Source: Desulfosporosinus youngiae DSM 17734 (GTDB lineage Bacteria > Bacillota > Desulfitobacteriia > Desulfitobacteriales > Desulfitobacteriaceae). Taken from it: DNA of 64,000 nt. The stretch is from contig NZ_CM001441.1 in assembly GCF_000244895.1 (NCBI RefSeq), positions 2,996,226 to 3,060,225 on the forward strand, given 5' to 3'. Position numbers and translations under genes: made by a program. Positions 37,689-57,208 of this stretch are shown here, piece by piece. Numbering within the stretch: position 1 is the stretch's first letter; every line of letters begins with the position of its first letter. Under the pieces are notes generated by a model that saw only the letters and a program-made list of their open reading frames with translations, did not search any database and had not been told where the DNA came from.

Positions 37689-38348
37689 CTATTCGTTTAA
37701 ATCCATTCTTTTCCCATTACAAATATAGACAATTTCTTCAGCAATATTAGTGCAATAGTCCCCTAACCGCTCTAAAAAGCGACTCGCAAAGAGAAGATAA
37801 TTAGCTTGTGTTACTTTATTAGGGTCTTCCATCATCAGATCCTTAAGTTCCCCGAAGACTCCCGAATAGATTTTGTCAATCTTATCATCAATCAATGACA
37901 TTTCTGCTGCAGTACCGCAATCTTCATTAATATATGCTTTAAGTCCAATATCAATCATTTCCAGAACCAAAGCACACATGAGCGGAATATCAGTTAACGG
38001 CTTTATGAATTTTTCCTGACCTATTCTGATCGTTATCTTTGCCAGATCAACCGACAAATCGCCCATTCTCTCCAGGTAAATAGAGATTTTAAAGCCAGCC
38101 ACCAGCTTGCGTAAATCACGGGCAAAGGGCTGCTGAGTAGCTATAAGAAGAATGCATTTTTCTTCAATAATTGCTTGCAAATCATTAATCTCCAAATCCT
38201 TCACTACAATAGAGTTGGCTAATTCAAGATCTTGGTTCAGCAATGAACTTACAGCATTCGAAATTTGTTGGCTGACCATTTCCCCCAGGTTTAAAATATT
38301 TAAACGAAGTTCCTCTAATTCATTATCAAATTTCTGCCGGGTTGGCAT
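37689..38348 (-). CDS. phoU: Phosphate uptake regulator PhoU
   Basis: A 219-residue helical metal-binding protein that lowers Pst/Pho signalling when phosphate is ample. Two PhoU repeats carry E/D-rich motifs (MGDLSVDLAKI near residue 83 and LGDYCTNIAEE near 198). ATG 38348 has GGAGG 9 bp upstream; the longer frame to 38399 is unlikely. It closes the pst operon. Confidence 0.93.
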   Translation of the reverse strand: MPTRQKFDNELEELRLNILNLGEMVSQQISNAVSSLLNQDLELANSIVVKDLEINDLQAIIEEKCILLIATQQPFARDLRKLVAGFKISIYLERMGDLSVDLAKITIRIGQEKFIKPLTDIPLMCALVLEMIDIGLKAYINEDCGTAAEMSLIDDKIDKIYSGVFGELKDLMMEDPNKVTQANYLLFASRFLERLGDYCTNIAEEIVYICNGKRMDLNE

Positions 38349-38456
38349 TACAGCAGTCCTCCTCTCGATATCTAAAATTATTATAAGCGTGATTTCCACA
38401 AAAATATAGCGGTAAGCAACTTCCTCAAAATCAACAATAACAATAGACAGAGGTCA

Positions 38457-39209
38457 TTAACCAAAGCGTCCGGATATATAATCTTCGGTCTTTTTCTTAG
38501 CCGGCCGGGTAAAGAGGATACTTGTTACATCCTCTTCGATTAAATCGCCACTTAAGAAAAATGCGGTTCGATCCGAGACACGGGATGCCTGGTGCATATT
38601 ATGAGTAACAATCATGATCGTATATTTATCTTTCAACTCTGCAATTAATTCTTCAATCTTCATGGTGGAAATTGGGTCGAGTGCGGATGTAGGTTCATCC
38701 ATCAATAAGATTTCCGGACCCACTGCTAAGAGGCGTGCTATACAGAGCCGCTGCTGCTGACCACCTGAAAGCCCTAATGCGGATTCATGCAAACGATCCT
38801 TGACTTCGTTCCATAAAGCTGCATCCTTTAAACTGGCTTCAACTATTTCACTCAGTTTTTTCTTATCGGTTTCTCCATGAATACGAGGACCATAAGCAAT
38901 ATTTTCAAAGACCGACTTTGGAAAAGGATTCGGATTTTGAAATACCATGCCTACCTTTTTGCGAAGTAATACTACATCCGTATCCGATGCATAGATATTC
39001 TGTCCGTCAATATTCACTTGCCCTGTAATTCTGACACCTGGGATTAAATCTTGCATTCGATTGAGAGTTCGTAAAAAGGTCGATTTACCGCAACCTGAAG
39101 GACCAATCAGGGCAGTCACACTTTTTTCCTTCATCGATAGACATATTTTATTTAAGGCTTGTTGATCACCATAAAAAAGGTCGAGATTATCAACCGCGAT
39201 CTTATCCAT
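38457..39209 (-). CDS. pstB: Phosphate ABC transporter ATPase PstB
   Basis: A 250-residue ABC ATPase powering phosphate import. Walker A is GPSGCGKST, the signature LSGGQQQR and Walker [13 protein letters not shown]. The [29 protein letters not shown] segment is typical of PstB. It lies in the order pstC-pstA-pstB-phoU. Confidence 0.97.
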
Positions 39210-39239
39210 ATTGAATTCTCCTTACATCCCTATTGAGTA

Positions 39240-40085
39240 TTACGCCTTATTTTTCCCTTGATGCCGATATTGCAGCCAACGACTGGGCAGGGTCAAACAA
39301 ATGTTAAAGACGATCACCATGATGATTAACAGCGCAGCCGTTCCATCGGCAATTTGATCCGGATTTGTCCCTGGCAACGGATTTGACTTAACGGCGAATA
39401 AATGGACCGCTAATGTTTCTCCGGCCGCTAAAGGATTAACATCAAAGGGTATTCGTGAAACATTCATTCCCGCAGTAAAAATTAAAATAGCTGTCTCTCC
39501 CAACGCCCTGCCGGCGACAAGGGTTATTCCGGTAATAAGACCAGGAAGGGCTGTCGGCAGAATAACTTTTCGCAAGGTTTGCCACATGGTAGCTCCTAAG
39601 GCTAAACTAGCTTCTCGATAACTTCTGGGTACTGCTAACAAAGATTCTTCTGTAACACGAACTAAGATTGGTAAATTGAGTAAGGCTAGAGTAGCCGCTC
39701 CACCTAAAATAGTGAAGCCAAGACCTAACATGTTCACAAAGAGAATCATGCCGAAGAGACCAAATACTATGGATGGAACGCTCGCTAAACTCTCTGTGCT
39801 CAAGCGAATCAGGTCTGTAAGTTTATTTTTAGGGGCATATTCAGCCATATAGATTCCAGCACCCAAACCGACCGGCAGAGAAAAAATCAGCGAGAGAAAT
39901 AAAATATAAAAGGAGTTGAAAAGTTGACCTCTTACGCCATCCGGACCATTGAAGAACTCAACTGTAAGATGAGGTAGACCTTTTCCCAAAATTAGAGCTA
40001 AGAAAGCAACTAGTAAAGCGACAATAGCTAGAGCTCCTAACCAAAGCAAAGCACTGGCAAACCGATCCGCTTGATGAGCTTTCAA
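39240..40085 (-). CDS. pstA: Phosphate ABC transporter permease PstA
   Basis: A 281-residue inner-membrane permease with six helices and the binding-protein-dependent EAA loop (EASLALGATMWQTLRKVILPTALPG). It pairs with PstC. The start is TTG overlapping the pstC stop, implying coupled translation. Confidence 0.95.
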   Translation of the reverse strand: MKAHQADRFASALLWLGALAIVALLVAFLALILGKGLPHLTVEFFNGPDGVRGQLFNSFYILFLSLIFSLPVGLGAGIYMAEYAPKNKLTDLIRLSTESLASVPSIVFGLFGMILFVNMLGLGFTILGGAATLALLNLPILVRVTEESLLAVPRSYREASLALGATMWQTLRKVILPTALPGLITGITLVAGRALGETAILIFTAGMNVSRIPFDVNPLAAGETLAVHLFAVKSNPLPGTNPDQIADGTAALLIIMVIVFNICLTLPSRWLQYRHQGKNKA

Positions 40086-40963
40086 CGGGCTGCCCCCTTT
40101 CGTGAGGCTGTTCGAACAAGAATAATCATAATCAGGGCAATAATCAGAAGAATAAAGGCCATCATAAATAAAGCATTATTCCAAGTTGATCCAAAAGGAG
40201 TGTTGCCCATTTCCATAACAATATCACTGGTCAATGTGGATGTTGGACTCCCTAAAGAATCAGGGAAGCGCGGAGAATTGCCAATAACCATCTGTACCGC
40301 CATTGTCTCTCCGATAGCCCTGGCCATTGCCAAAATGATAGCGGTTAATATGCCTGGGGATGCCGCCGGTACAAGAACTTTGCGAATAGTTTGCCAGCGT
40401 GTCGCCCCTAAAGCTAGTGAAGCTTCTTTATAAGTTTTTGGTAAAGAGCGTAAAGCATCTTCCGAAAGACTAATAACCGTAGGCAAAATCATAATTGCTA
40501 ATACGATGCCTGCAGCCAACATACCATAACCGGTCGGCGAGTTCGTCAGTTTGCCTGTAAAGCTCACGATGACCGTAATACCTACGTATCCGTATACTAC
40601 TGAGGGAATTCCGGCAAATAAATCCGTGGCCGGACGCATAATAGCGCGTACCCATGGCGGAGCAATCTCAGCTAAAAATACAGCTCCCGCTAGTCCAAGG
40701 GGTCCGCCAAGCAGGATCGCGATAAATGTCGTTCCTAGGGAGCCCGCTATAAATGTAAGAGCTCCGAACTGTCCATTATCAGGGCTCCACTTGCTGCTGG
40801 TAAAAAACTCAAAGATGCTTACTTCTCGAAACGTGGATAAACCCTGCATGCCTACAAACCAAATAATACACAAAATAATCAATGAAACTAAAACTGCGCT
40901 GCTAATAAATAAATAGCGTGACAGACGATCATTGAAATATACCCAGGACTTAGGGTTAGTCAA
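40082..40963 (-). CDS. pstC: Phosphate ABC transporter permease PstC
   Basis: A 293-residue membrane permease with six helices and the loop EASLALGATRWQTIRKVLVPAASPG. It starts at TTG with GGAGG 9 bp upstream. About 265 bp separate it from pstS, with a long hairpin between. Confidence 0.95.
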   Translation of the reverse strand: MTNPKSWVYFNDRLSRYLFISSAVLVSLIILCIIWFVGMQGLSTFREVSIFEFFTSSKWSPDNGQFGALTFIAGSLGTTFIAILLGGPLGLAGAVFLAEIAPPWVRAIMRPATDLFAGIPSVVYGYVGITVIVSFTGKLTNSPTGYGMLAAGIVLAIMILPTVISLSEDALRSLPKTYKEASLALGATRWQTIRKVLVPAASPGILTAIILAMARAIGETMAVQMVIGNSPRFPDSLGSPTSTLTSDIVMEMGNTPFGSTWNNALFMMAFILLIIALIMIILVRTASRKGAAR

Positions 40964-41135
40964 CCTTTTACACCTCCGCCAATCTTAATCCATATTATCA
41001 ACTGCTGAATAGTCAACCTGGCACCGTTGAATTATTGAGCATGATTTATTCTAACTTATCTGTGTAAACTAGCAATTAAGGGAATGTAAAGTTTAGGTTA
41101 ACTTTGTGGGATCGTTTAATTCTAATTCTTCTTGA

Positions 41136-41228: not shown

Positions 41229-42095
41229 TTATTTCTTAAGCATACTGACAGGGATAAATCCAGTTTTTTCAACATTCTTCTCTTGGAATTCTTTGCTCAT
41301 AATATAATCTAAGAACGCCTTTACAGTTCCTGTTGGCTCTCCTTTAGTATACATGTGTTCAAAGGCATAAATAGGATACGTTCCGTTGGCAACTGTTTCT
41401 ACGCTGTATTCTACACCATTATACTTCAAGGCCTTAACAGTGTCTTTCAAGTAAGCGGCATCACAATAACCGATTGCGCCGGAGGTTTGTGCTACACCAG
41501 TAATTAAGTTTCCGGTAGAATCCTGAGCCGCTGCCGCATCTGTAAAATCTTTTCCATCCATCACAATTTTACTGATCGTTGCACGAGAACCGGACGATTT
41601 AGCACGACCGATAATTGATATTTTGGAGTCACTGCCACCAACGTCTTTCCAATTGGTAATTTTTCCGGTGAAGATATCGGTCAATTGTTCTTTGGTCAAG
41701 TTATCGACTGTGACATCTTTATTAACAATAATGAGAAAGGGTGCAACTGCAACTTGATGATCGACTAAACCTTTATCTTTTAGTTCATCCGTAACTTCTA
41801 CATCAGAGTTTCCGATATCTACAGAACCGCTGGCAACGTTATTCAGACCTGTAAATGATCCGCCGCCGCTTATGTTTACTTGTACGCCAGCATTCTTTGA
41901 CATAAACTCATCGGCTGCTAATTTGACCAGTGGCTGGAGGGCTGTTGAACCAGCAGCGGAAATAGTTTTCTTTTCAACAGTTTGTGCAGGTGTTGTCTCC
42001 TTGGTTGGTTCTGCGGTTTGGCCGCAGCCCACCAAAGCCAGTAAAGCAAATAATGTGGTACCTACAAATGCGATCTTAGATTTCGTTTTAAACAA
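41229..42095 (-). CDS. pstS: Phosphate-binding lipoprotein PstS
   Basis: A 288-residue extracellular phosphate receptor. A lipoprotein signal ends in ALVGCG near residue 24. Phosphate-binding segments AAGSTALQPL, SGGGSFTGL and GRAKSSGSRAT are present. Start TTG 42095 with AAGGGGG 8 bp upstream. A Pho-box-like promoter lies directly upstream. Confidence 0.96.
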   Translation of the reverse strand: MFKTKSKIAFVGTTLFALLALVGCGQTAEPTKETTPAQTVEKKTISAAGSTALQPLVKLAADEFMSKNAGVQVNISGGGSFTGLNNVASGSVDIGNSDVEVTDELKDKGLVDHQVAVAPFLIIVNKDVTVDNLTKEQLTDIFTGKITNWKDVGGSDSKISIIGRAKSSGSRATISKIVMDGKDFTDAAAAQDSTGNLITGVAQTSGAIGYCDAAYLKDTVKALKYNGVEYSVETVANGTYPIYAFEHMYTKGEPTGTVKAFLDYIMSKEFQEKNVEKTGFIPVSMLKK

Positions 42096-42133: not shown

Positions 42134-42188
42134 ATTATACAAAATGTTTGTAAAGTCTTAATGAATTCAATGTAAACTTTAAGTTAAA
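42134..42188 (-). promoter_or_regulatory. Pho-box promoter of pstS
   Basis: Minus-strand direct units: TTTAACTTAAAG (42177-42188), TTTACATTGAA (42166-42176), TTCATTAAGAC (42155-42165) and TTTACAAACAT (42144-42154), a 4-bp gap and -10 TATAAT (42134-42139). There is no -35 of the usual kind, as expected for a PhoB-activated promoter. The same 12+11+11+11+4 geometry recurs at the regulator gene. Confidence 0.85.
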
Positions 42189-42197
42189 GTTTTAATT

Positions 42198-42884
42198 TTA
42201 CTCCCGACGGGTAAAAAGATAACCTACTCCCCTTACTGAATCAATAACCGGTCCTAAAGGCTTTAATTTATTTCTTAAATGACTAATATGCACGTCTAAA
42301 GCTCTGGTCCCTGTGCTGGAAAGATTGCCCCAAATCTTCTGTATTAAATATTCCCGGCTAAACACCTGGTAAGGATTGGCTACAAAGAGAACTAAAAGTT
42401 CGAACTCCTTTACTGTAAGGCTTAGAGGCTGTTCATCTAAAGTAACCAGGTAATTTTCTTGCCAAATCTCTAAAGTTCCCCACCTTAAAGGACTCTTTTT
42501 GGCTTCAGCTTTTCGTTGAACTTCTCTAAGCCTCGCTTTAATTCTCGCTAATAATTCTCTGGAATTGAAGGGCTTTGTTATATAATCGTCAGCTCCCAGT
42601 TCAAGGCCGATGACTTTATCTGTTACATCATCACTATCGCTCATTATAATTATTGGAACAGATCCAAATTCATTGTGTGATCGAATGGATTTACACACAT
42701 CTAATCCATCAATAAACGGCAGAGTTTGATCTAAGATGATGATATCCGGACTTTCCCGCCTGGCCAGATCTAATCCTTGTTCACCGTCCGCAGCGATAAG
42801 TACAGTATGCCCTTCCCTTTCTAAATCATTGCGAGTAAGTTCTTGAATTTTAATTTCGTCGTCTACGAGCAAAATTTTGGCCAC
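42198..42884 (-). CDS. phoB: PhoB/PhoP-type response regulator
   Basis: A 228-residue OmpR-family regulator. The receiver has DDE at the N-terminus, the phospho-aspartate in IIILDQTLP and a Lys in ITKPF. The C-terminal winged helix has LTVKEFELLVLF and VDSVRGVGYLF. Its own promoter and that of pstS share the same repeats, so it is the likely regulator of this island. No PhoR histidine kinase gene is adjacent. GGGGAG precedes the ATG. Confidence 0.9.
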   Translation of the reverse strand: MAKILLVDDEIKIQELTRNDLEREGHTVLIAADGEQGLDLARRESPDIIILDQTLPFIDGLDVCKSIRSHNEFGSVPIIIMSDSDDVTDKVIGLELGADDYITKPFNSRELLARIKARLREVQRKAEAKKSPLRWGTLEIWQENYLVTLDEQPLSLTVKEFELLVLFVANPYQVFSREYLIQKIWGNLSSTGTRALDVHISHLRNKLKPLGPVIDSVRGVGYLFTRRE

Positions 42885-42950
42885 ATCTTAACTCCCCTCA
42901 ATAAATTTTCCTCCCTTACGAAATTTGTATCTAAAAGATCACCTACACAT

Positions 42951-43005
42951 ATCATAAGCTTTGTATGTAAAGTCTAAATGAACATAATGTAAAGTTAGTG
43001 TTAAA
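42951..43005 (-). promoter_or_regulatory. Pho-box promoter of the response regulator gene
   Basis: Minus-strand units TTTAACACTAAC (42994-43005), TTTACATTATG (42983-42993), TTCATTTAGAC (42972-42982) and TTTACATACAA (42961-42971), a 4-bp gap and -10 TATGAT (42951-42956). This implies autoregulation. Confidence 0.85.
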
Positions 43006-43027: not shown

Positions 43028-43087
43028 GTAAGATAAATAACAGCTGTCTTCTGAAATAAATTCGAAGACAGCTGTTATTTATCTTAC
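43028..43087 (-). terminator. Terminator at the end of the phn operon remnant
   Basis: A perfect 24-bp inverted repeat (43028-43051 with 43064-43087) overlaps the stop codon of the broken phnE copy. It separates the phn operon from the regulator gene. Confidence 0.8.
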
Positions 43088-43691
43088 TTTATTCATAGAA
43101 CCTGTTTCCAGAAGGATCGCTATCGCAAGAATCAAGTATGTCATAACCCCAATTTCCCCTGCTCCGGCAACCACACTCATGGAAATTGCATAAGCGAAGT
43201 TAATTTGAAATCTCATGTAAGACCAGGCTATCAAGTGGGTATTAAAGCATACTCTTCTATCTCTATTCTGAAAAAGCTCAAAATAGGGCTTAGATAAATA
43301 GCCAATCGAGTGAAATGTCATGCCAATTAGTGCCGCAGCACTGCCGAGTTCAGTAGATACTGCAAAAATAAATACCCATAATATTGTAGGAACTGGTCGG
43401 ATAATAGTGACAAGTCCTTTGATAATATTGCTAATATATTTAGAATACATATCTTGAGCGGTTAACAACCCCAAGCCCAGAGAAATTAATCCACCGCTCA
43501 AGGTCGCGAATAAAGCCAGTCCTAAAGTCGTCATAATTTTCTGAACAGCGTTCCATAAGGTAAAGCTATGAGAATACGGGTACAGAAACATCATTTTAAA
43601 ATGATCAAGTTTATCAGACAAACCCTTGAAAATCTCAATACTCTTATAATCCATCCTTAAACTAATGTAGATTGTCAATCCCGTAATAATT

Positions 43692-45358
43692 AGGGCTTGC
43701 TAACCGAATCCTTTTTATTCGTTCGATTACGCAAATACACCAATATCTGTAATTTGAAAATACCTCTTCAAAATTTGGACAAAAAGAACCCTGAGCTTAT
43801 GCTCCAAGTTCATGACAAAGAATTGCATGCTAATCATGCACTCTGCTGTTTCTTTCAATTTAGCATAAACACGATCAAGGCCATATTTCCTTTTACCCTC
43901 GCCAAACTTGCCTTCTACAGCATTACGCATCTTGGCATCCATCCGTTCAATGGCCTTCTCTACTTTTTTCAGGGCATCTCCTGAGGGCCTGCCTAGTTTG
44001 GGACCGCTGAGCCGGATGTTGTGGTTTTTGCAATACGCCAGATTTTTGCGGTTACGGTATATCTTGTCGGCCAGCACCGCCTCAGGATAGCATCCATTAC
44101 GGGCTCTGTAACGCTCTACGCTATCTATCAATGTTTCTGCTTCATTAAACGCGTCCCAAGACAATTTTTCGATGCGGCAGAATCCCTTCTCGATGCTTAT
44201 GGCTACCTTAGCCCCGAATTCTACTTTGGCACTGGCTTTGCCGCGTACAATCGGTCGGACATGATCCTGATAGAGGTTGACGATTCGATCCGGTATCTGA
44301 TGTTGTTTTGTCTTATACATTGTTTCCTGCTGCTCAATTACGGTTCGAATGGTTTCCAATAACTTGACTTGTCGGTTGCTTAAGGCTTCAAAGCCTGAGG
44401 GAATTTCTTTCAGCATTTGGTCAACGTGGCGAAGGTTTCTTTTACAATATTGCAATTGCTGCTTGATGCCTTTTCTAAGTTGCTTCTTTCTCGGACTCCG
44501 CTGTTTAGACACACTCAGATAAGCTTTTCTCGCTTTTTCACGGTAAGTTCTCGGCCGTTTGGTTGCTTTACCCTTCGCTTTATGAAGCGTATCAATGATC
44601 TCATCCAGTTTCTCGCGGGATTCGTTAAGCAGTCCGAGGTCTGTCGGATATTTTATATCGGCCGGTGTGCAGGTGGCATCAAGGATCAACATACCTTGAT
44701 TCGGTTTGGATTCTTCTGAATCAGAGTCAGCAGGGGTTTTCTTCTCTTCCTTATCCGCATCCGGAAGATTAGGTCCTTGTTGATCATCATCGTTCTTCTC
44801 GGCTTCCTTTTCAGATGTTTTTGCCGCCCGCTCAGCTAAAGCAATGCGCTCGTTGATTTTAGCCATGCGGTCTTTCTTAAAGCGCTTGCGAAATTTCACC
44901 AGGGCGACTGGAGTCAAAGGACGAGTCAATTGAAACTCCTTGAGGCCTATGAACCATTGGAGATAAGGATTCTCCGTAATCTGCTGAACCGTTTCACGGT
45001 CAGTATAACCGCAGCGAGCTTGGATGATTAACGTACCGAGTGCCATACGGACCGGTTTGGCCACATTGCCACGATCACTCGGAAACATATGGGCGTATTC
45101 TTTTTCATACTCATCCCAAGGAATTATATTAGCTAATTGAACCCAACGATTTTCGGGATCCAGTTTCCCCGAAAAAGGCAGGATGAAATCATCTATGGTT
45201 AGCTGGGGACTCGGTTTACGGTACATTTTCAACCTCCAAGTGCACGGTTTTTTTAATCTAAATTCATATTTCCTTGCACTAAAGATTCGACGTAAATGCC
45301 CAAAAACCCTTGTTAAATCAGGTTTTTCCCTGGCGTTTAGCACTCGTTAGCAAGCCCT
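43692..45358. mobile_element. IS1182-type insertion sequence
   Basis: A 1,667-bp element with 13-bp terminal inverted repeats (AGGGCTTGCTAAC at 43692-43704 and its complement at 45346-45358), flanked by AATT on both sides (43688-43691 and 45359-45362), read as a 4-bp target duplication. Since AATT is palindromic it could also belong to the repeat. It contains one intact transposase gene and sits inside a phnE copy. Confidence 0.88.
43727..45226 (-). CDS. IS1182 family DDE transposase
   Basis: A 499-residue transposase. The N-terminus MYRKPSPQLTIDDFILPF and the DUF772-like part with AHMFPSDRGNVAKPVRMALG are typical of IS1182. A charged spacer (about 150-185, EEKKTPADSDSEE) precedes the DDE domain. 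The catalytic region includes LILDATCTPADIKYPTD and the later LADKIYRNRKN. ATG 45226 has GGAGG 6 bp upstream; the longer frame runs into the right end of the element. It looks intact. Confidence 0.9.
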   Translation of the reverse strand: MYRKPSPQLTIDDFILPFSGKLDPENRWVQLANIIPWDEYEKEYAHMFPSDRGNVAKPVRMALGTLIIQARCGYTDRETVQQITENPYLQWFIGLKEFQLTRPLTPVALVKFRKRFKKDRMAKINERIALAERAAKTSEKEAEKNDDDQQGPNLPDADKEEKKTPADSDSEESKPNQGMLILDATCTPADIKYPTDLGLLNESREKLDEIIDTLHKAKGKATKRPRTYREKARKAYLSVSKQRSPRKKQLRKGIKQQLQYCKRNLRHVDQMLKEIPSGFEALSNRQVKLLETIRTVIEQQETMYKTKQHQIPDRIVNLYQDHVRPIVRGKASAKVEFGAKVAISIEKGFCRIEKLSWDAFNEAETLIDSVERYRARNGCYPEAVLADKIYRNRKNLAYCKNHNIRLSGPKLGRPSGDALKKVEKAIERMDAKMRNAVEGKFGEGKRKYGLDRVYAKLKETAECMISMQFFVMNLEHKLRVLFVQILKRYFQITDIGVFA

Positions 45359-45473
45359 AATTAATAGTATTAATTGGATAATGTAAGCAAAATTGTGCTG
45401 CTCACAAATAGTTTTTGATTCATGTCTTGTTTCTTCTTTGACTCGGATCACAAAATCACCCTTCTATGATCTA

Positions 45474-45496
45474 GGGCCTCTCTTTTAGAGAAGCCT
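45474..45496 (-). terminator. Hairpin at the end of the PHP gene
   Basis: GGCTTCTCT pairs with AGAGAGGCC (one G-U in the minus-strand RNA) across the PHP stop codon. No T run follows, so read-through into the broken phnE is expected. Confidence 0.4.
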
Positions 45497-46339
45497 CCAT
45501 CCTTCTTTTCTGGCTAACAGTTCATAAAGACATTTTACTTCCAACTCAGGACATCCCAATTCAACAGGTTTTTCCCCATAAAAGCCATGGAAATCCGATC
45601 CCCCTGTAATGACCAGTTTGTGCTTTTGCGCAAATTCCAAGGAGATTTGGCGATGATCTTGATTGTGAGTGGGATGAAACACTTCAATTCCTTCCAATCC
45701 CAACTCTACCCATTCATCAATTCCCTCGAAATTCGCAAACTGGCCCGGATGAGCAAGGACGGGAACCCCTCCGGCTTTTCTGACAGCCAAAATCGCGGCC
45801 CGAACGTCCAAGTATACGAGCGGAATATAAGCAATTCCTCGAGATTCAGGCGGGTTCCCTCTTTGGAAAAGAGTTTTGTATAGATCACAATAAATACTCT
45901 CACAATACCCTTTATCCAGTAAGGCATGCATAATATGCTGTTTAAAGACACCCGTTCCTCCTCTATAGTGCTGAACATCCTCCCAGGAAATATCATAGCC
46001 GGCGGAGCTGATCCTTTGAACCATTTCCTGGGATGTTTGGTTTCTGCTCTGAAGAAGTGGCGTACAAAGCCGATCCAAAGCGGGATGTCCCGGTTCAATA
46101 TACAAGCCGAGGATATGCACTCTCTTATTTCTGCGGAAATCATAAGCAGATAGTTCAATCCCCGGCACTATCCCTATTCCTATCTCCCGGCCAAGGTTTA
46201 TGGCCTCAGGTAAACCTATCGTTGTGTCATGATCTGTAATGGCAATATGAGTCAGTCCCTTTTCCTTAGCCAGTCGAATTACCTCTTTGGTACTTAGGGA
46301 ATTATCAGATATCTTTGTGTGCACATGTAAATCAATCAT
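45485..46339 (-). CDS. phnPP: PHP-family phosphoesterase of the phn operon (cyclic phosphate dihydrolase type)
   Basis: A 284-residue PHP metal-dependent phosphoesterase. DLHVHTKISD, ITDHDT, GIELSA, LAHPGQF and GSDFHGF supply the three-metal ligands. In Eggerthella lenta a PHP enzyme in a C-P lyase cluster hydrolyses the ribose cyclic phosphate product to ribose 5-phosphate and phosphate, doing the work of PhnP and PhnN. Neither of those is seen here, so the same role is inferred. ATG 46339 has GAGG 9 bp upstream and overlaps the acetyltransferase gene by 8 bp. Confidence 0.78.
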   Translation of the reverse strand: MIDLHVHTKISDNSLSTKEVIRLAKEKGLTHIAITDHDTTIGLPEAINLGREIGIGIVPGIELSAYDFRRNKRVHILGLYIEPGHPALDRLCTPLLQSRNQTSQEMVQRISSAGYDISWEDVQHYRGGTGVFKQHIMHALLDKGYCESIYCDLYKTLFQRGNPPESRGIAYIPLVYLDVRAAILAVRKAGGVPVLAHPGQFANFEGIDEWVELGLEGIEVFHPTHNQDHRQISLEFAQKHKLVITGGSDFHGFYGEKPVELGCPELEVKCLYELLARKEGWRLL

Positions 46340-46775
46340 TGCTGCCAACCTCTACCATAAAACTTATTCCATGCTGCATGAAGCCTAACTGTTCATAAAA
46401 TTTGTGAGCTGAAACCCTCTTTTTATTGCTGGAAAGCATTAATTTATAACATTTTTCCTCTTTTGCTAATCCCATAATAAATTGCATTAATTCTTTTCCT
46501 ACACCGCGTCCTCTGTACCTCTTACTAACGATCATACTTTCCGCAACAGCAAGTTTAGTTCCAAGATGCCCTAAGTTATCAAGCATTATGAGACTGCATG
46601 TGCCGATAAGGACTTTCTTATCTTCAGCGACAAAGATCTTATAATAGGGATATTCTTTCATCCTTTGCCATAGTTTCAACGCCTCATCGAGAGTAAGGAC
46701 TTCTTCTTCGTCCATACCCTGCAAAAGTTCTATAACTTGAGGGAGATCCGTCTCTGTAGCCTGCCTGATCAACAT
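46332..46775 (-). CDS. GNAT acetyltransferase (PhnO-like by context)
   Basis: A 147-residue GNAT enzyme with the acetyl-CoA loop RYRGRGVGKELMQ. Within phn operons, PhnO acetylates aminoalkylphosphonates. The protein fits that size and place, but its sequence alone does not prove the substrate. It overlaps phnM and the PHP gene, indicating tight coupling. Confidence 0.75.
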   Translation of the reverse strand: MLIRQATETDLPQVIELLQGMDEEEVLTLDEALKLWQRMKEYPYYKIFVAEDKKVLIGTCSLIMLDNLGHLGTKLAVAESMIVSKRYRGRGVGKELMQFIMGLAKEEKCYKLMLSSNKKRVSAHKFYEQLGFMQHGISFMVEVGSND

Positions 46776-47974
46776 ACATTATCAACTCTTTCAATCTTTA
46801 ACTCCTGAAAATCTGATTGAAAAACAGTCTTTCCGCCAACCAGAGTTTTTCTGAGAATGGGATAATTCTGATGTATCTCAACAATTATTAAATCCGCAGA
46901 TTTTCCTACCTCTATAGTTCCAACATCACTATCAATCCCTAAGGCCATAGCCGGATTTAAAGTCACCAACTTGACGGCTTCAGTCAGCTTAATCCCTTCT
47001 TTAGTCAAATGAAAAATAGCCGGAAGCATTGCGCTGGGCAGATAGTCGGAACAAACGATATCTGCCGCATTATTATTAATAGCGTCGAACGCTCTCATAT
47101 TATTACTGTGGGACTTACCACGGATAATATTAGGCGCCCCGACACAGACATGAATTCCTTTAGAACGAGCATAAAGAGCCGTTTCCAGATTGATAGGAAA
47201 TTCACTGACAGTCCCTTGGCAGGCATAAAGAGTATCTATTTTCCCTTTTGAATCATCATCATGGAAGGCCAATCTAATTCCTTTACTTCTTGCGATTTTA
47301 GCCAAAGCCATTAGCTTTAGCCAATCGATCCTGGTCTGGTTTTCAATGGTTCTATCGATCATATCCTCAACTTCCCGCTCATTTTTACCATGCTGTTGTA
47401 TGGTAAATTCCTTAAGTAACTCCGCATCTTTAAACTGGCCTTGACCAGGAGTATGGTCCATATAGGACATATAATCTATGCTCTTCTCCTTGATGAGACT
47501 TTCCAAAGCACTAACCCCAGCCAGGAAGGGCAATTCATATCTGAGGTGTATTTTGTGATGAATCATCGGACGAGTTCGCTTAAGCCGGTTTATGCTCTTA
47601 ATGATATCCAGGATCGTGCTGATGTTTCGCACTCCCCATTCATCGCTCAAGGTCAGGGAATGATACATGGTCGTAATACCACTTACCACAAGCTTTTTTT
47701 CCAGTTCATAGAAAGACATATCTATCGGGAATAACGTATTGGGCCTGGGTTGTATCTCTTTTTCAATGGCATCACTATGCAGATCAATCATGCCGGGCAT
47801 GATATAACAACCTTCCCCATCAATCATCGTGATATCTGAATAACACTTGACCCTTGGGAAATCACTTTCCTCTATCTCTGAAATCTTATTACCATCGATT
47901 ACAATATGTCCCTTGACAACATCATTAGGCAAAATGATCAATGCATTATAAATACATACCCGCTCAGTTCTCAT
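46769..47974 (-). CDS. phnM: RPnTP hydrolase PhnM
   Basis: An amidohydrolase-fold enzyme of 401 residues that removes diphosphate from ribose-1-phosphonate-5-triphosphate before C-P cleavage. The metal motif is MPGMIDLHSDAIEK. LAFHDDDSKG and ICSDYLPSAML-like segments (VCSDYLPSAMLPA) follow, and NPAMALGIDSDVGTIEVGKSADLI is the typical end. It follows the transporter genes in the operon. Confidence 0.93.
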   Translation of the reverse strand: MRTERVCIYNALIILPNDVVKGHIVIDGNKISEIEESDFPRVKCYSDITMIDGEGCYIMPGMIDLHSDAIEKEIQPRPNTLFPIDMSFYELEKKLVVSGITTMYHSLTLSDEWGVRNISTILDIIKSINRLKRTRPMIHHKIHLRYELPFLAGVSALESLIKEKSIDYMSYMDHTPGQGQFKDAELLKEFTIQQHGKNEREVEDMIDRTIENQTRIDWLKLMALAKIARSKGIRLAFHDDDSKGKIDTLYACQGTVSEFPINLETALYARSKGIHVCVGAPNIIRGKSHSNNMRAFDAINNNAADIVCSDYLPSAMLPAIFHLTKEGIKLTEAVKLVTLNPAMALGIDSDVGTIEVGKSADLIIVEIHQNYPILRKTLVGGKTVFQSDFQELKIERVDNVC

Positions 47975-48056
47975 GTCAATACTCCTTCTATTTATTGTGA
48001 GCTGCCTGATTAATCCTTTATCAATCTCCAGTGAGCTTGTTCGGCGAACGAAGACC

Positions 48057-48923
48057 TTACGAACTCTTTTGGAGTCTGCGTTTAAACTGAGTTGAAACTA
48101 CTTCGAGAACAATTGCAATAGCAATAATCAAATAGGTGATAAGGCCTACTTCATGTAAATCGAAGTAGAAATCCCCTGCCATAAACAAATCAAATCCAAT
48201 TCCGCCTGCTCCGGCCGCAGCCCCCATCGCAACTGCATTAGCAAAATTGATTTCAAACCTCAAGAAGCTCCAGGAGAGCAAATAAGTTAGAGAGGAGGGC
48301 AGAACCGCTTGAAAAACAATCTGCCACCAATTAGCGCCACTCGCCATTAACGCTTCAATAACACTTCTATCCAGATCTTCGAAGGATTCAGAATAGGCCT
48401 TAGTCAAATAACTAACCGAATGAAAACTCATACCGATAATCGCCGCAGCACTGCCCAGTCCGGCAGCAACCGCAAAGATTAAAACCCATAAAATTGTAGG
48501 CACTGCTCGAATAATCGCGACAAAACCCTTAATTATATGGGTAACTTGTTTGGGCGCTAAATTCTGAGCAGCCAGCAATCCTAAAAACAACGCGACAATT
48601 CCGCCGATTAAAGTCGTCAGAAAAGCTAGACCCAAGGTCACGACAACATTATAGAACGCCTCCCCTAAGGTAAAACGATGTGACGAAGGGTGCAGAAAGA
48701 TTGTCATAAAATTGACAACTGTATCGGCAAAACCCTTCATTAGATCAATACCCTGATAATCAATCGTCAAGAAGAAATAAATTGTTATAGCACTTAAGGC
48801 AAGCAAGACAACCCGCATGGCAATACCGGATTTGTTCAGGGGTTTGATAGGCGCAATGCTTATACTTTTTAGGTTATGGCCTACTTGCTCCCATCCGCGG
48901 ATTGATTCTTCAAACTGCATCAC
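48057..48923 (-). CDS. phnE: Phosphonate ABC transporter permease PhnE (second subunit)
   Basis: A 288-residue membrane permease, intact relative of the broken copy at 43079. The coupling loop is EALMASGANWWQIVFQAVLPSS. It has a longer N-terminal cytosolic part than its partner. Its start overlaps the upstream permease stop (GTGATG). It forms the channel with the other PhnE. Confidence 0.93.
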   Translation of the reverse strand: MMQFEESIRGWEQVGHNLKSISIAPIKPLNKSGIAMRVVLLALSAITIYFFLTIDYQGIDLMKGFADTVVNFMTIFLHPSSHRFTLGEAFYNVVVTLGLAFLTTLIGGIVALFLGLLAAQNLAPKQVTHIIKGFVAIIRAVPTILWVLIFAVAAGLGSAAAIIGMSFHSVSYLTKAYSESFEDLDRSVIEALMASGANWWQIVFQAVLPSSLTYLLSWSFLRFEINFANAVAMGAAAGAGGIGFDLFMAGDFYFDLHEVGLITYLIIAIAIVLEVVSTQFKRRLQKSS

Positions 48924-49705
48924 AAAATCACCCTTCTGATTTTATTTGATATAACTTCAATGGTAATAACAGTAATCACGATAAAAAGTACGACTAGACT
49001 AGCTTCGTGATACTCGAACCTTTTGTAATACAAATCAAACAAAAACCCGATACCTGTTCCGGTAAGTACTCCAACCAAAGTAGCGTCACGAATGTTGGTT
49101 TCAATCATGTACAATAACCAGCTAATCATTTGAGGCATGCCGGCAGGTAACACAGCTTGAAAGATAATATGAAAATAACTGGCTCCGGACGCTTGCAGAG
49201 CTTCAATTGAGTTATTGCCAACTTCATCAATCGTTTCCATAAAAGCACGTGTCAGAAACCCAAAAGAACCCAAAAACAAGGCCAAATAACCAGTCAGCGG
49301 GCTTTGGTTGAACGCCAGCATTAACACCATGGCCCAAGCCACCAGGGGTATGTTCCGAAAAAGAGAAGCAATTCCCCTGCTAATAATACTAAATGCCCAA
49401 TTTATCCTTGTTGTTTGAGAACCTGCCAAAGATAAGCATAAGGCAAACAGGGCAGCAACCGTTGTTGCCGCAATAGACATCAACACGGTTTCCTTCAATT
49501 TAGGCAATATCTCAGGTACGATTCTCAATGACTCAACATCAGGGTAAAAATTTGCTCCTCCCCAAGCCATCGCTTTCCATATGCTGAAAAATCCTTTCCT
49601 CACATCGTACTCAGTAATGATAATTGAACCAAAGGAAAGCACTAAGAGTAATGAAACAAAGACCAGCATGTTATTTCTTCGTTTGTTGAAAATGTCATCC
49701 CGCAT
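48920..49705 (-). CDS. phnE: Phosphonate ABC transporter permease PhnE (first subunit)
   Basis: A 261-residue membrane permease with the loop EALQASGASYFHIIFQAVLPAGMPQ. It overlaps phnC by 11 bp and the next permease by 4 bp. Paired PhnE proteins are common in Firmicutes. Confidence 0.93.
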   Translation of the reverse strand: MRDDIFNKRRNNMLVFVSLLLVLSFGSIIITEYDVRKGFFSIWKAMAWGGANFYPDVESLRIVPEILPKLKETVLMSIAATTVAALFALCLSLAGSQTTRINWAFSIISRGIASLFRNIPLVAWAMVLMLAFNQSPLTGYLALFLGSFGFLTRAFMETIDEVGNNSIEALQASGASYFHIIFQAVLPAGMPQMISWLLYMIETNIRDATLVGVLTGTGIGFLFDLYYKRFEYHEASLVVLFIVITVITIEVISNKIRRVIL

Positions 49706-50480
49706 GTCGTTCTCCTAAATCCGGCATCAAATCATCGGACTCTGAGCCATAAATCTCACGAATCTGTAGAGGGGTCAAATTCTCCGGAAATCCATCAAAC
49801 ACAACCTTTCCTCGATTAATGCCGATAATTCTGTCCGAATACTTCAGAGCTGCCTCTACTTGATGCAAATTCACAATGACCGTTATTCCCATTTCCTTGC
49901 AAATAGTTCTTAAGTGATCCATGATAATCTTTGCAGAATTAGGATCCAAGGAGGCAATCGGTTCATCGCAAAGAATTATCTTAGGATTTTGCACCAAAGC
50001 GCGGGCAATGCCAACCCGCTGTTTTTGACCGCCACTTAACTGATCGCACCGCTTATAGACTTGCTCCTCCAACCCCAAAATCTTGATAATGCGGAAAGCC
50101 TGAGCTTTTTCTGTTTGACTGTACTTGCCAAAGATCCCCGCCAATGTCGATTTATACCCGAGCCTGCCGTGGAGCACGTTCTCGATCACTGTCAGCCGGT
50201 CCACCAGGTTATAATGCTGAAAGATCATACCGATCTTTGTTCTTAGCTTTCTTAACATTTTCTTGCTCAGACTTGAAGTAATAACGCCGTCAATGGAGAT
50301 TTGGCCTTTGTCTATTTCTACCATCCGGTTAATACAGCGCAGAAGAGTGGATTTCCCCGCTCCGGAAGGACCAATAATGGATACAAACTCCCCTTCATCG
50401 ACGGAGAAACTAACATTATCTAGAGCACAAAATTGGCTGTTATAATTTTTTGTGACATGGTTCAATTCTAATAAAGCCAT
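49695..50480 (-). CDS. phnC: Phosphonate ABC transporter ATPase PhnC
   Basis: A 261-residue ABC ATPase. Walker A is GPSGAGKST, the signature LSGGQKQR and Walker B IILCDEPIASLD. LRTKIGMIFQHYNLVDRLTVIENVLHGRLG is typical of PhnC. It lies after phnD with a hairpin between. Confidence 0.95.
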   Translation of the reverse strand: MALLELNHVTKNYNSQFCALDNVSFSVDEGEFVSIIGPSGAGKSTLLRCINRMVEIDKGQISIDGVITSSLSKKMLRKLRTKIGMIFQHYNLVDRLTVIENVLHGRLGYKSTLAGIFGKYSQTEKAQAFRIIKILGLEEQVYKRCDQLSGGQKQRVGIARALVQNPKIILCDEPIASLDPNSAKIIMDHLRTICKEMGITVIVNLHQVEAALKYSDRIIGINRGKVVFDGFPENLTPLQIREIYGSESDDLMPDLGERHAG

Positions 50481-50507
50481 ACAATCTTCCCCTGTCCATC
50501 AGATTAT

Positions 50508-50543
50508 GAGTGGCAGCATCTAAGAAGTTGATTGCTGCCACTC
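50508..50543 (-). terminator. Stem-loop between phnD and phnC
   Basis: An 11-bp inverted repeat (GAGTGGCAGCA at 50508-50518 with TGCTGCCACTC at 50533-50543) without a T run. Like the pstS-pstC hairpin, it probably favours the binding-protein message over the transporter message. Confidence 0.65.
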
Positions 50544-50587
50544 CTCACCTATACAAAAGACTAATCAGGAATGGTCATCCCGCCCCT

Positions 50588-51604
50588 TTATTTGCTTAGA
50601 TCACGGATAGGCTGATAAAAGGAATCTTCTACTGTAAGAAAACGCTGCGGTGCATTGAAAAACCCTTTCATTTTAGAGTCTTTAGGGATAAAGATCTTTT
50701 CATTATTAGTAACTTCATCTGAAGTGAGCGCCTGAATCATAGCGTCGATGGTTGCCTTGCTTAATTCGCCTGAATTAACAGCAAAGGGTGGGTTAATAAC
50801 CGGGGTTGAGTCAATGACCACAAATTGCTTTCCCGCTAATTTGCTGAACGGATCTGTAGCATCTTTTTTAACAGTATAGACTGCCCCGGGAGTGTTGTCT
50901 TTTCCCCCTGCAAGCTCTACATAACTGATTACATCAATATCATCGACCGCAGAGACTTCGGATTTATCTGTGAGCACGTTGACTAAGGATAGTTGGTGAG
51001 ACCCTCCAAAAATTACTTGACTAAAAAGTTTATCACTGCCGCCTTGAAGCAGGTTTTCTGCTTTGAGGTCCTTCCACTTGTCTTGTTTTGAGAAATGAGC
51101 TACGATACCGGCTGAAGGCACTTTAAAACCAGATGTTGAACTCGTTGAAACAAAGGAGAACCTTTTCCCTGCTATGTTTTCCAACGAATAATCCATACCG
51201 GATTTGTATTGATCTTCATTGCCTTTTTTAACAACAATCCGACTATAATACATGGCATCTTGCAAAGTACCCGATGAGCCGCTGTTCACTACAAGCGGAA
51301 TAACCTTACTATTTTTTTCATGAGCCTCTACATATGATTCCCCTCCGAGAAAGGCAATTTGGGCATTACCGCTGGCTATCGCCTCAACCGCAATGGCGTA
51401 ATCTGTGGTCAATTTGTCCGCCACTTTTTTGCCTGTAGCTTTTTCGATAACCTTACCGATTTCGGCCCGGGTATCCTTGAAATCTTCTGCAGCATTATTC
51501 GGCAGCCAGGCGATAGTGATAGTATCCGGTTCTTTTGCCCCACACCCTACTAAAAGGAACGCAACCAGAATGACAACCAGAGCAAATACTCCTGCTTTTT
51601 TCAC
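50588..51604 (-). CDS. phnD: Phosphonate-binding lipoprotein PhnD
   Basis: A 338-residue extracellular receptor. The lipobox is LLVGCG near residue 21. The body has IAWLPNNAAEDF, IAFLGGESYVEA and VSTSSTSGFKVPSAG, as in PhnD. GTG 51604 has GAGAGGAG 7 bp upstream; the longer frame to 51655 is unlikely. It starts the transport part of the operon. Confidence 0.93.
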   Translation of the reverse strand: MKKAGVFALVVILVAFLLVGCGAKEPDTITIAWLPNNAAEDFKDTRAEIGKVIEKATGKKVADKLTTDYAIAVEAIASGNAQIAFLGGESYVEAHEKNSKVIPLVVNSGSSGTLQDAMYYSRIVVKKGNEDQYKSGMDYSLENIAGKRFSFVSTSSTSGFKVPSAGIVAHFSKQDKWKDLKAENLLQGGSDKLFSQVIFGGSHQLSLVNVLTDKSEVSAVDDIDVISYVELAGGKDNTPGAVYTVKKDATDPFSKLAGKQFVVIDSTPVINPPFAVNSGELSKATIDAMIQALTSDEVTNNEKIFIPKDSKMKGFFNAPQRFLTVEDSFYQPIRDLSK

Positions 51605-51704
51605 GTCTATTCTCCTCTCAACTTTAAAAATGATTATACCCTTGGATAACCGCACTCTTATTTTACCTGAGAATGATTAAGCCCCTATTATGTCACTGTA
51701 ACTA

Positions 51705-52418
51705 TTAGGTTAAATTTTCAATATCCTCCAATTTCCCATTTCGCATCGTGTATTCCCGACTGCAGAGATTTTCCATAAACTCAAGATCATGAAAGATTCC
51801 TATCATGGTTGTTCCTTCTCGTTTTAATTGCTCGATCAGTTCTCTTACTTTTAATTTGGAGGCATGGTCCAAACTTGCTGTAGGTTCGTCCAAAAGCAAC
51901 AGCCTTGGACGCTTTACCATCGCTCTGGCAATATTCAAACGCAGCTTTTCCCCTCCGGAAAACGTGCTCGGATAGCAGTCCCATAATCCTCTGTCCAATT
52001 CAAAATGCTCCAGCATACTATTGGCTTCCCATTCTGCGTACTCTTCTTTGTGTCCCATCTCCAAGACGGCATGCTTGACCAGCTCCTGAGCCGTTGTCCG
52101 GGGCATAGTGTTTAAAAATTGAGATACATAGCCAATCTCATGTTTCCTGAGATAAACCATTTGTCGTTCAGATAGTTCCGCTATGTTTACAAGTCCAAAG
52201 TTTTTGGATTGATACCATATACTCCCTTTTTGCGGTATATAAGTACGATAAATGCACTTAAAAACAGTTGATTTCCCGCTGCCGCTTTTCCCTGTGATTC
52301 CGACAAATTCACCTTCTCTCAAGTCAAGACAAATATCCCGCAATGCTTCAATTTGCTTGCCTAAATTATGGATCATAAAAGATTTCGATAAGTGCTTAAT
52401 GGTTAGTATCTCCTGCAT
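51705..52418 (-). CDS. phnL: C-P lyase accessory ATPase PhnL
   Basis: A 237-residue ABC-type ATPase that is not a transporter but part of the C-P lyase machinery. Walker A is GKSGSGKST, the signature FSGGEKLRLNIARA and Walker B LLLDEPTASLD. Its start adjoins the stop of the hexapeptide gene. Confidence 0.93.
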   Translation of the reverse strand: MQEILTIKHLSKSFMIHNLGKQIEALRDICLDLREGEFVGITGKSGSGKSTVFKCIYRTYIPQKGSIWYQSKNFGLVNIAELSERQMVYLRKHEIGYVSQFLNTMPRTTAQELVKHAVLEMGHKEEYAEWEANSMLEHFELDRGLWDCYPSTFSGGEKLRLNIARAMVKRPRLLLLDEPTASLDHASKLKVRELIEQLKREGTTMIGIFHDLEFMENLCSREYTMRNGKLEDIENLT

Positions 52419-53042
52419 TTACTCACCCGCTCTATAATGCTTGTCAATGAATTCATTAATAGGAAGGCAAAAGTCATCAAGCCTTGCTTTAATGGTCTCA
52501 TAGGGCCAGTCCCACCACTTAATAGCTTCCAGTTTGCTTAGGATATCCTCAGCAAATCGCCGCTTGATTGGTTTAGCCGGCACTCCAACTACGACCCTAT
52601 AGGGATCAACATCTTTCGTCACCACTGCACCACTCCCTACAACCGCTCCATTGCCAATCCTCACACCAGGCATGATGATCGCACCATGTCCAATCCAGGT
52701 ATCATGTCCAATATAAGCTTTTTGCTCTCTTCGCCATTGATAGAACAACTCATCATCTGATTCAGCCAAACCATACTTTATCCGCCGGTAAGTAAAGTGG
52801 TGCAGAGTCGGCCTTTCTACAGGATGAAACACCGGGCCGATTCTTACCATGTCGGCAATATTAGAAAACCTGCCGATTTCAACGTTTTGTAAGGTACAAA
52901 AGCGGCCGGTATAGGAGAAATCCCCCAATACAACATTTTCGAAAACGTTATAAAGTCCAATCTCGGTATACCTACCTAACTCAGCATTGTACAATTGACA
53001 GTTCTCATGGATGGTTGGAGCTTCGCCAAGTCGAAGGATCAT
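52419..53042 (-). CDS. Phosphonate-operon hexapeptide-repeat acetyltransferase
   Basis: A 207-residue left-handed beta-helix protein. Hexapeptide repeats appear as [20 protein letters not shown] and [16 protein letters not shown], with HHFTYR and [11 protein letters not shown] near the ends. Such proteins are frequent in phn operons and are thought to acetylate an operon metabolite; the substrate is not fixed. Confidence 0.88.
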
Positions 53043-53163
53043 TTTTCCTCAGTCCTTTCACATTTATCCAATCCTACCTGCAAGCGGGCATAACAGCCTC
53101 ATATTCTGTCTTTTCATAAGGAACATTTTGCAGCCTTGGCTAATAAAATTCCCTTCTATAAAA

Positions 53164-54009
53164 TTAAAGGAGGGATTGTACTAACTGCTGTGTATAAGGA
53201 TGCTGAGGATCTTCCAGGATCTGGTCGGTCAAACCTTGTTCAATAATCCTTCCATCCAACATCACAATGGTTCGGTCCGCCAGCATTCTAATCACGCCTA
53301 AATCATGGGAAACAATGACTACTGTAATCTTCAACTCTCTCTGGATACTCTTGATTAAATCAAGGACACTGGCTTGTACCGACAAATCCAGCCCCGTTGT
53401 TACTTCATCGAGCAGGAGCAGGGAGGGATTATTGGATAATGCTTTAGCAATTTGAACCCTCTGCTGCATTCCGCCTGAGAAGTTCTTGGGAGCTTCTTTC
53501 ATACGGTAAACCGGTATGTTGACGTGCTCCAGTAATTTTTTTCCTCTCTCTTCCATCGTTCCGACACGCCTGTTTCCGGCAGAAATTAGTTTCTCGGCGA
53601 TATTGCCAATGGATGAAACGTTCATCTTTAAACCCATACGCGGATTCTGGTAGACTTTTCCCATCCTATGATTTCTTATATATCGTTTTTGTTGGGACAA
53701 TTCTGCCAAGACATTCGCTTTTCCGTCCTTGTGGGAGCTAATATAAACCTCTCCGCTGCTTACCCCCTGGTCGAAATACAGACAATCCATTAAGGTTGAC
53801 TTGCCGCTGCCGCTTTCACCGACAATTCCTAATATTTCTCCCCCATACACCTCAAACCGGATATCCCTGCAGGCGTAGACCGTACCGCAGGCAGGACAAT
53901 AATTTTTTAGCAGATTGTTTCTTTTTGAATCTCTGCAGGACACACACCCGCTGCCATATTGTTTATTTAGATTGCGGATAGACAAGACAGGCTGTTCAAA
54001 AACTTCCAT
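53164..54009 (-). CDS. phnK: C-P lyase ATPase PhnK with four-cysteine insertion
   Basis: A 281-residue ABC-type ATPase that docks on PhnJ in the C-P lyase core complex. Walker A is GESGSGKST, the signature FSGGMQQR and Walker B LLLDEVTTGLD. Between strand 1 and the Walker A, residues about 19-48 add a loop with CVSC and CPAC pairs plus one more Cys, absent from E. coli PhnK, which looks like a zinc knuckle. The phnJ stop directly precedes the ATG. A 121-bp gap with no clear feature follows. Confidence 0.93.
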   Translation of the reverse strand: MEVFEQPVLSIRNLNKQYGSGCVSCRDSKRNNLLKNYCPACGTVYACRDIRFEVYGGEILGIVGESGSGKSTLMDCLYFDQGVSSGEVYISSHKDGKANVLAELSQQKRYIRNHRMGKVYQNPRMGLKMNVSSIGNIAEKLISAGNRRVGTMEERGKKLLEHVNIPVYRMKEAPKNFSGGMQQRVQIAKALSNNPSLLLLDEVTTGLDLSVQASVLDLIKSIQRELKITVVIVSHDLGVIRMLADRTIVMLDGRIIEQGLTDQILEDPQHPYTQQLVQSLL

Positions 54010-54864
54010 TTACGCTCCCTCATCCTCTTGATTTTGGTTCAATTTCTGCAAACAATAGCTGGAATCGTTGCATTGATAAAAGGTTTCACCCGTTGCATCA
54101 TTCAGTATTTCATCTAGAAATACTCCTTCCGCCCCACACAATCTGCAGCACTTATCCCGGAATGATTCAACTTCAAAAGGATAATCTTCAAAATCAAGTG
54201 ATACAACCTTTGTATAGGGTGGCACAGCATACACCTTCTTTTCACGGCCCGCACCTAAAAGTATCAATGCCGGAGAACTATTCAGCTTAGGATTATCAAA
54301 TCTCGGGATAGGGCTGGGAGCCATAACATACCTGTTATGAACCATAACCGGATGGTCTGCACCCGTTGATGTTGTTCCATAGTTCATGATTTGCTCAAAT
54401 AGCATGAGCCATCCGCCACTATACTCTTGTTCGGCATGAAGCTTTTTAGTTTCATATTCACTCGGCTCATAATATCTCAAGGGTTCTGGCAGCGGTACCT
54501 GAAGAACGAGAATCTGACCAGTTTGCAGTGGGATTTCCGGTATTCTATGTCTTGATTGAATAATGCTTGCTTCTGATGTTTCGTTGGTTACTGCGATACC
54601 GGTTGTCGCGGCAATGAGCTTCTTAATATTGACGGCATTAACGGATTCATCTGAGCCTTGGTCGATGACTTTAAGAACATCCTCTTTGCCCACAAGGGAA
54701 AGGGTCAACTGAAGTCCTCCCGTTCCCCAACCTCTGGCAATGGGCATCTCTCTTGAAGCGAATGGAACCTGGTACCCGGGAATAGCAATCGCTTTTAAAG
54801 TCGCTCGTCTAATTTCCCGTTTTGACCCTTCGTCAAAAAAGGCAAAATTATACTTGTTATTCAT
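54010..54864 (-). CDS. phnJ: C-P lyase radical-SAM subunit PhnJ
   Basis: The catalytic subunit (284 residues) that breaks the C-P bond of ribose-1-phosphonate-5-phosphate with SAM and a 4Fe-4S cluster. The non-canonical cysteines of PhnJ are present in CRLCGAEG and in QCNDSSYC (E. coli positions 241, 244, 266 and 272). The N-terminal FAFFDEGSKREIRRATLKAIAIPGYQVPF is diagnostic. Gly-radical segments lie in RGWGTGGLQ. Confidence 0.96.
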   Translation of the reverse strand: MNNKYNFAFFDEGSKREIRRATLKAIAIPGYQVPFASREMPIARGWGTGGLQLTLSLVGKEDVLKVIDQGSDESVNAVNIKKLIAATTGIAVTNETSEASIIQSRHRIPEIPLQTGQILVLQVPLPEPLRYYEPSEYETKKLHAEQEYSGGWLMLFEQIMNYGTTSTGADHPVMVHNRYVMAPSPIPRFDNPKLNSSPALILLGAGREKKVYAVPPYTKVVSLDFEDYPFEVESFRDKCCRLCGAEGVFLDEILNDATGETFYQCNDSSYCLQKLNQNQEDEGA

Positions 54865-54868
54865 TAAT

Positions 54869-56587: not shown

Positions 56588-56604
56588 CGGCTTCCTCCTC
56601 TTAC

Positions 56605-57027: not shown

Positions 57028-57064
57028 TAATCAGCCTCCCTTGGCATACGTCTGCCACAAAAAC

Positions 57065-57129: not shown

Positions 57130-57130
57130 C

Positions 57131-57165: not shown

Positions 57166-57208
57166 ATGCATAAGCATAAAGCTATTTCCTGAGCGAACCT
57201 TTATCCAT

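Follow-up and report, generated by a model that had tools for sequence, protein, structure and literature searches.

Introduction

In Bacillus subtilis, PhoP boxes follow a consensus of TT(A/T/C)ACA-type repeats and PhoP is autoregulated. The Pho box is made of 11-nt direct repeats (PMC4415409). RapA of Pseudomonas fluorescens is a Pho-controlled EAL phosphodiesterase (PMC3032545), and glycolipid replacement under phosphate limitation is described for PlcP-Agt (PMC9239053) and for Agt of Desulfovibrio alaskensis (PMC5193443). In the open literature we found no paper on a Pho response that combines uptake, lipid and c-di-GMP functions in the lineage of Desulfosporosinus.

We analysed a stretch of 64,000 nucleotides of the Desulfosporosinus youngiae DSM 17734 genome (the window). 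The repeat arrays found in it are genuine and well conserved, and they belong to a known kind, Pho boxes. Like the PhoP boxes of B. subtilis, they consist of four 11-bp TTAACA/TTTACA-like repeats (two dimers) that replace the -35, and they are present at pstS and at the promoter of a regulator. Unlike in B. subtilis, the third unit is consistently TTCATT/TTAATT, a separate box lies inside the pst operon before pstC, and the regulator gene is unpaired with phoR. At the level of sequence, the analysis establishes the geometry of the operator, the conservation of this geometry at five promoters, the confinement of the strong sites to one island of the genome and the enzyme families encoded there. 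We consider it probable that the arrays are PhoP/PhoB-type Pho operators driven by low phosphate, with the regulator (RR1) acting on its own gene, and that they couple phosphate uptake to lipid replacement and c-di-GMP breakdown.

The pstS and regulator promoters share one architecture

The two promoters and their genes lie as follows.

41229 to 42095, minus strand: pstS, phosphate-binding protein (TIGR02136, 251.6 bits, over cut-off)
42134 to 42188, minus strand: Pho operator and promoter of pstS (43.5 bits with the box profile, 58.3 bits with the relatives-only matrix); units TTAACT 42187-42177, TTTACA 42176-42166, TTCATT 42165-42155 and TTTACA 42154-42144, gap TTTG, -10 TATAAT 42139-42134
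42198 to 42884, minus strand: RR1, OmpR/PhoB-family response regulator (Pfam Response_reg and Trans_reg_C)
42951 to 43005, minus strand: Pho operator and promoter of the RR1 gene (48.2 bits with the box profile, 62.1 bits with the relatives-only matrix); units TTAACA 43004-42994, TTTACA 42993-42983, TTCATT 42982-42972 and TTTACA 42971-42961, gap AGCT, -10 TATGAT 42956-42951

On the minus strand, the pstS promoter (42188-42134) is TTTAACTTAAAG TTTACATTGAA TTCATTAAGAC TTTACAAACAT TTTG TATAAT and the RR1 promoter (43005-42951) is TTTAACACTAAC TTTACATTATG TTCATTTAGAC TTTACATACAA AGCT TATGAT, which confirms what the sequence-only reading had described, the same words in the same order, a 4-bp gap and a -10 at both. 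The first unit of 12 bp in that reading had to be corrected. Spacing counts over 40 island loci give 11 bp for all four units, and the longer unit was a register artefact in which one extra 5' T had been counted. In the 11-bp register the promoters read T TTAACTTAAAG TTTACATTGAA TTCATTAAGAC TTTACAAACAT TTTG TATAAT and T TTAACACTAAC TTTACATTATG TTCATTTAGAC TTTACATACAA AGCT TATGAT, respectively. Across the 40 loci, the distance from TTAAC to the second word peaks sharply at 11 (88 cases vs 3-10 at each other distance from 6 to 18), and the second and third word-to-word distances have their maxima at 11 as well (65 and 61 cases); counts at distances other than 11 range from 1 to 17 over all three word intervals. 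The 11-bp direct-repeat spacing of a Pho box is thus found at every interval.

The hexamers located 17 bp upstream of the -10 at the two promoters are ATTAAG and ATTTAG, neither of which is TTGACA-like, indicating that the box replaces the -35. This supports the proposed architecture, in which direct repeats spaced by 11 bp take the place of a -35. The distance to the -10 is fixed as well, TTWACA-N9-TANNNT being present in 55 of 55 boxes collected.

Further operators lie within the same island

The two boxes had been described as twins. This did not survive a search of the rest of the window, which revealed the same geometry at pstC and at an EAL gene and, in addition, a fifth array; the idea of an isolated pair at pstS and RR1 was rejected, since five arrays are present.

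37689 to 40963, minus strand: pstC, pstA, pstB and phoU (ORFs; phoU, TIGR02135, 192 bits, over cut-off; order kept in relatives)
41048 to 41102, minus strand: third Pho operator, located in the pst operon after pstS and before pstC and followed by a -10 of its own, TAGAAT (42.9 bits; 46.3 bits with the relatives-only matrix)
43079 to 58719, minus strand: phn (C-P lyase) cluster, together with a transposase gene and a degenerate phnE-like ORF, located between the RR1 gene and PLC-GT
59109 to 60257, minus strand: GT, diacylglycerol glycosyltransferase of the MGDG-synthase/UgtP type, 3' of PLC (PF06925, 131 bits)
60307 to 61017, minus strand: PLC, zinc-dependent phospholipase C family protein (PF00882, 35.4 bits, over cut-off)
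61052 to 61127, minus strand: fifth array, longer and degenerate, 11-bp, upstream of the PLC gene (11.5 bits, weak by score)
61196 to 61250, plus strand: fourth Pho operator, 5' of the EAL-GGDEF gene (40.8 bits; 52.3 bits with the relatives-only matrix; conservation footprint)
61301 to 63484, plus strand: EAL protein with CBS and GGDEF domains, predicted c-di-GMP phosphodiesterase (PF00563, 170 bits)

The box before pstC is kept across the genus, in almost every island locus whose pst operon is complete. The EAL box has the 11-bp units and the 4-bp gap seen at pstS and RR1, followed by a weak -10, TACTCT, which is TATTAT in most relatives. Divergent from the EAL promoter is the PLC array, with the words ATAAC, TTTAAC, a degenerate unit, TTAAC, ATAAT and TTTACA, the gap GTCT and the -10 TAAAAT (61057-61052). 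Its words and register are kept in 13 relatives, in the region between PLC and EAL, and conservation of this spacer in the 13 is essentially confined to the two arrays.

By inspection, the catalytic motifs of the EAL protein are intact (EAL, NIN, ITE, DDVG, KVD, GVE, Q-G). Like RapA, it is a predicted EAL phosphodiesterase behind a Pho box and would be expected to lower c-di-GMP at low phosphate; unlike RapA, it has an EAL-CBS-GGDEF arrangement with an N-terminal GGDEF-like part and belongs to another phylum. The best NCBIfam match of GT is PRK13609, diglucosyl diacylglycerol synthase, below its cut-off. PLC and GT are adjacent in the island behind a conserved promoter array and resemble PlcP-Agt, in that neighbouring genes for a phospholipase C-type enzyme and a diacylglycerol glycosyltransferase appear tied to phosphate limitation. 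They differ from it in family, a PF00882 zinc-family phospholipase rather than PlcP with a transferase of the MGDG-synthase/UgtP family, and in host, an anaerobe of Gram-positive lineage, in which the lipid change is a prediction.

In relatives, EAL, PLC-GT, RR1, pstS and pstCAB-phoU are contiguous. The phn cluster stands between RR1 and GT in the window, which puts the fourth and fifth arrays at a distance of 18 kb. Upstream of RR1, phn genes also occur in one other genome (G012) and phn fragments in another (G019). At the junction of phn and RR1, the degenerate phnE-like ORF (43079-43678) adjoins the transposase gene (43727-45343). The box-profile scan found no Pho box inside the phn cluster, where the best site of the relatives-only matrix reaches 13.5 bits (51660-51714), and the cluster was rejected as a Pho target because no box was found in it.

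Searching the 5.66-Mb genome with the box profile (150 of 3706 candidates scored) returned four strong sites, at 48.2, 43.5, 42.9 and 40.8 bits, with the next at 16.7. All four strong sites among these candidates fall in the one island inside the window, at RR1, pstS, pstC and EAL. The second pst operon of the same genome carries at its pstS2 gene a half box only, TTTAACGCAAAC TTTACA (L204), which is fuller in several relatives.

Targets of the box in relatives

The boxes 5' of the regulator, pstS, pstC and EAL genes, and the related array 5' of PLC, are kept in the genus. The expectation that boxes would be conserved upstream of pst genes in related genomes was borne out, at pstS and pstC across the genus and at pstS2 in others. 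The word set also proved usable for scanning, as had been proposed: in other genomes the box profile recovered pstS2 (G004, G008, G009, G010, G015, G025), phoU (G025), pstC (G005), an alkaline-phosphatase-like gene (G014, identity read from sequence), an operon of PLC-like, glycosyltransferase and UDP-sugar-dehydrogenase-like genes (G023, identities read from sequence) and further EAL genes. In some relatives it also found chemoreceptor-like or CheW-like genes, again identified by reading the sequence. Genes resembling those for methyl-accepting chemotaxis proteins adjoin pst in one locus (L190) and follow Pho boxes in four (L183, L189, L273, L279), hinting at phosphate-linked chemotaxis.

Candidate regulators of the boxes

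By its position RR1 is the obvious candidate for the protein that binds the boxes, and its autoregulation appears likely, but the lack of an adjoining kinase, a PhoB score below cut-off and four genomes that keep boxes and have no close RR1 call for caution. It has a receiver domain (PF00072) and an OmpR-type winged helix (PF00486), both over cut-off, and the window copy possesses the phospho-acceptor Asp, the acidic pocket and the Lys. Against the PhoB family TIGR02154 it scored 192.2 bits, below the cut-off of 296.2, and among the matches listed (25 families) no equivalog reached its cut-off. We found no kinase (HK2) match anywhere in the window, and none adjoining RR1 in the genus loci that carry it; the sole HK2 match in RR1-bearing island loci is outside the genus (L194), more than 3 kb from RR1. 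In one genome (G001, L159) Asn replaces the phospho-acceptor Asp of RR1 and also occurs in its acidic pocket; the DNA-binding helix is intact, and the boxes of this genome are intact and among the best-scoring.

Elsewhere in the genome, at C1:4782335, a second regulator (RR2) is paired with a PnpS/PhoR-like kinase, which reaches 394.8 bits against PnpS (cut-off 400). This pair offers a possible though doubtful alternative, in which the boxes are Pho operators bound mainly by RR2, RR1 has a secondary or modulating role, and the RR1 gene is a target without simple autoregulation. The nearly qualifying kinase speaks for it, as do the lack of a kinase near RR1 and the absence of the phospho-acceptor Asp from the G001 protein. 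Moreover, four genomes (G008, G009, G015, G025) have no close RR1, their best match, at 46-47%, being the RR2 orthologue, and they keep boxes at EAL and pstS2; another OmpR-family regulator can therefore apparently use the same word, and RR2 may share the operator word of RR1. On the other side, it is RR1 and not RR2 that lies next to pst in the island, both throughout the genus and in related genera; RR1 is flanked by two boxes and adjoins pst in most of the genus. RR2 itself scores against YycF at least as high as against PhoB. The recognition helices also differ (RALDVHISHLR in RR1, RTVDVHVRHLR in RR2), and it is the RR1 helix, DVHISHLR, that we take to resemble that of B. subtilis PhoP. 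A related-locus search with the regulator as query returned unspecific OmpR relatives. The notion that PLC is lost along with RR1 was rejected, since PLC homologues occur in the four genomes that have no close RR1.

A related promoter precedes a family of candidate small RNAs

Within about 500 bp of the site at 16.7 bits, C1:649123, there is no protein gene for it to drive. Downstream lies an element of ~100 nt (C1:649123-649285; L209, L314) with a 5' hairpin CCGYU...RGCGGUU, a pyrimidine-rich stretch and a terminator, of which further copies were collected (L315-L363). The promoter has the same 11-bp geometry with other words, TTAACA, TTCACA, TTCATG and GTAACA. At a loose threshold, box and element match in 29 of the 29 genus genomes; matches are strong or near full-length in ~20, and some genomes hold several copies. 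The candidate has no Rfam match at the gathering threshold. It recalls the csRNAs of the CiaR regulon in streptococci (PMC3091779), as multi-copy, ~100-nt, pyrimidine-rich candidates behind a direct-repeat promoter of response-regulator type; sequence, operator and host differ, and the small RNAs described here are predicted from sequence. The same promoter type precedes tiny hydrophobic ORFs, for example MKLIILLVLLGLIPSL-like ones, in several loci (L345, L347, L351, L353, L354, L355, L357, L281); these may be genes for small peptides that pair with the small RNAs. Near the small-RNA copies of one genome (G002) lies a c-di-AMP riboswitch (RF00379, 87.7 bits, L281 3888-4027).

The multi-copy family of candidate small RNAs, whose annotation has no connection with phosphate, stands behind a four-unit 11-bp array much like these. 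Together with the boxes at chemoreceptor-like and CheW-like genes, this might suggest operators of an OmpR-family regulator that answers a non-phosphate signal, with the pst neighbourhood incidental. We regard this as very improbable, given that the recurrent targets are pstS, pstC, pstS2, phoU, the alkaline-phosphatase-like gene and the PLC-GT operons.

Conservation and matrix scores of the arrays

The relatives-only matrix was built from boxes of relatives, leaving out the sites of the window, on which it scores 62.1 (RR1), 58.3 (pstS), 52.3 (EAL) and 46.3 bits (pstC); in 60 dinucleotide shuffles of the window its highest score was 2.0 bits. A 28-bp core with at most one mismatch has matches in 25 of the 29 genomes of the genus, and the reversed control of this core gave zero matches in the 29. 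The 55 boxes were collected with a seed that spans columns 13-40 only; as many of their promoters are orthologous, they do not count as 55 independent events. Outside the seed, all 55 have the same TAAC in unit 1 and the same T-A...T in the -10, which independently supports the fourth unit and the -10. The boxes are only 18-28% G+C, a composition in which repeats form readily; a chance resemblance among AT-rich promoters is nevertheless refuted by the conservation of the columns outside the seed, by the gap between 2 and 46-62 bits and by the empty reversed control, and was rejected as virtually inconceivable.

Discussion

If the arrays are low-phosphate Pho operators with RR1 as the binder, the reading we favour, their layout suggests how they would act. 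Four half-sites one helical turn (11 bp) apart occupy the -35 position, with the last word 9 bp before the -10, and by analogy with the established biochemistry of PhoB and PhoP, two head-to-tail dimers of the phosphorylated OmpR-family regulator would bind there and recruit RNA polymerase. Low phosphate would be the signal, upon which the regulator would turn on its own gene and pstS. The phosphoryl group would be supplied by a kinase from another locus, for which the PnpS/PhoR-like kinase next to RR2 is a candidate. The internal promoter before pstC would serve as an extra promoter for pstCAB-phoU, boosting the membrane and ATPase parts of the Pst importer. As the predicted lipid output, PLC would split phospholipid into diacylglycerol and a phosphate ester, and GT would convert the diacylglycerol into glycosyl-diacylglycerol, sparing phosphate, while the EAL phosphodiesterase would lower c-di-GMP at low phosphate.

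A broader picture for the genus is offered tentatively: its Pho response may be run from this one island, under a PhoB-like regulator that lacks a kinase and whose operator is also used by a second regulator of the PhoP type, with uptake coupled to glycolipid replacement and c-di-GMP breakdown and a related 11-bp operator driving the multi-copy small RNAs.

What this work adds to the known kind is a branch to lipids and c-di-GMP and a regulator that has no kinase beside it. The analysis provides a conservation-checked operator matrix for the Pho regulon of a little-studied anaerobic lineage. It also predicts a testable link, within one island, between phosphate shortage, the exchange of phospholipids for sugar lipids and signalling by c-di-GMP, and the kinase-less regulator raises the question of how phosphate is sensed in these organisms.
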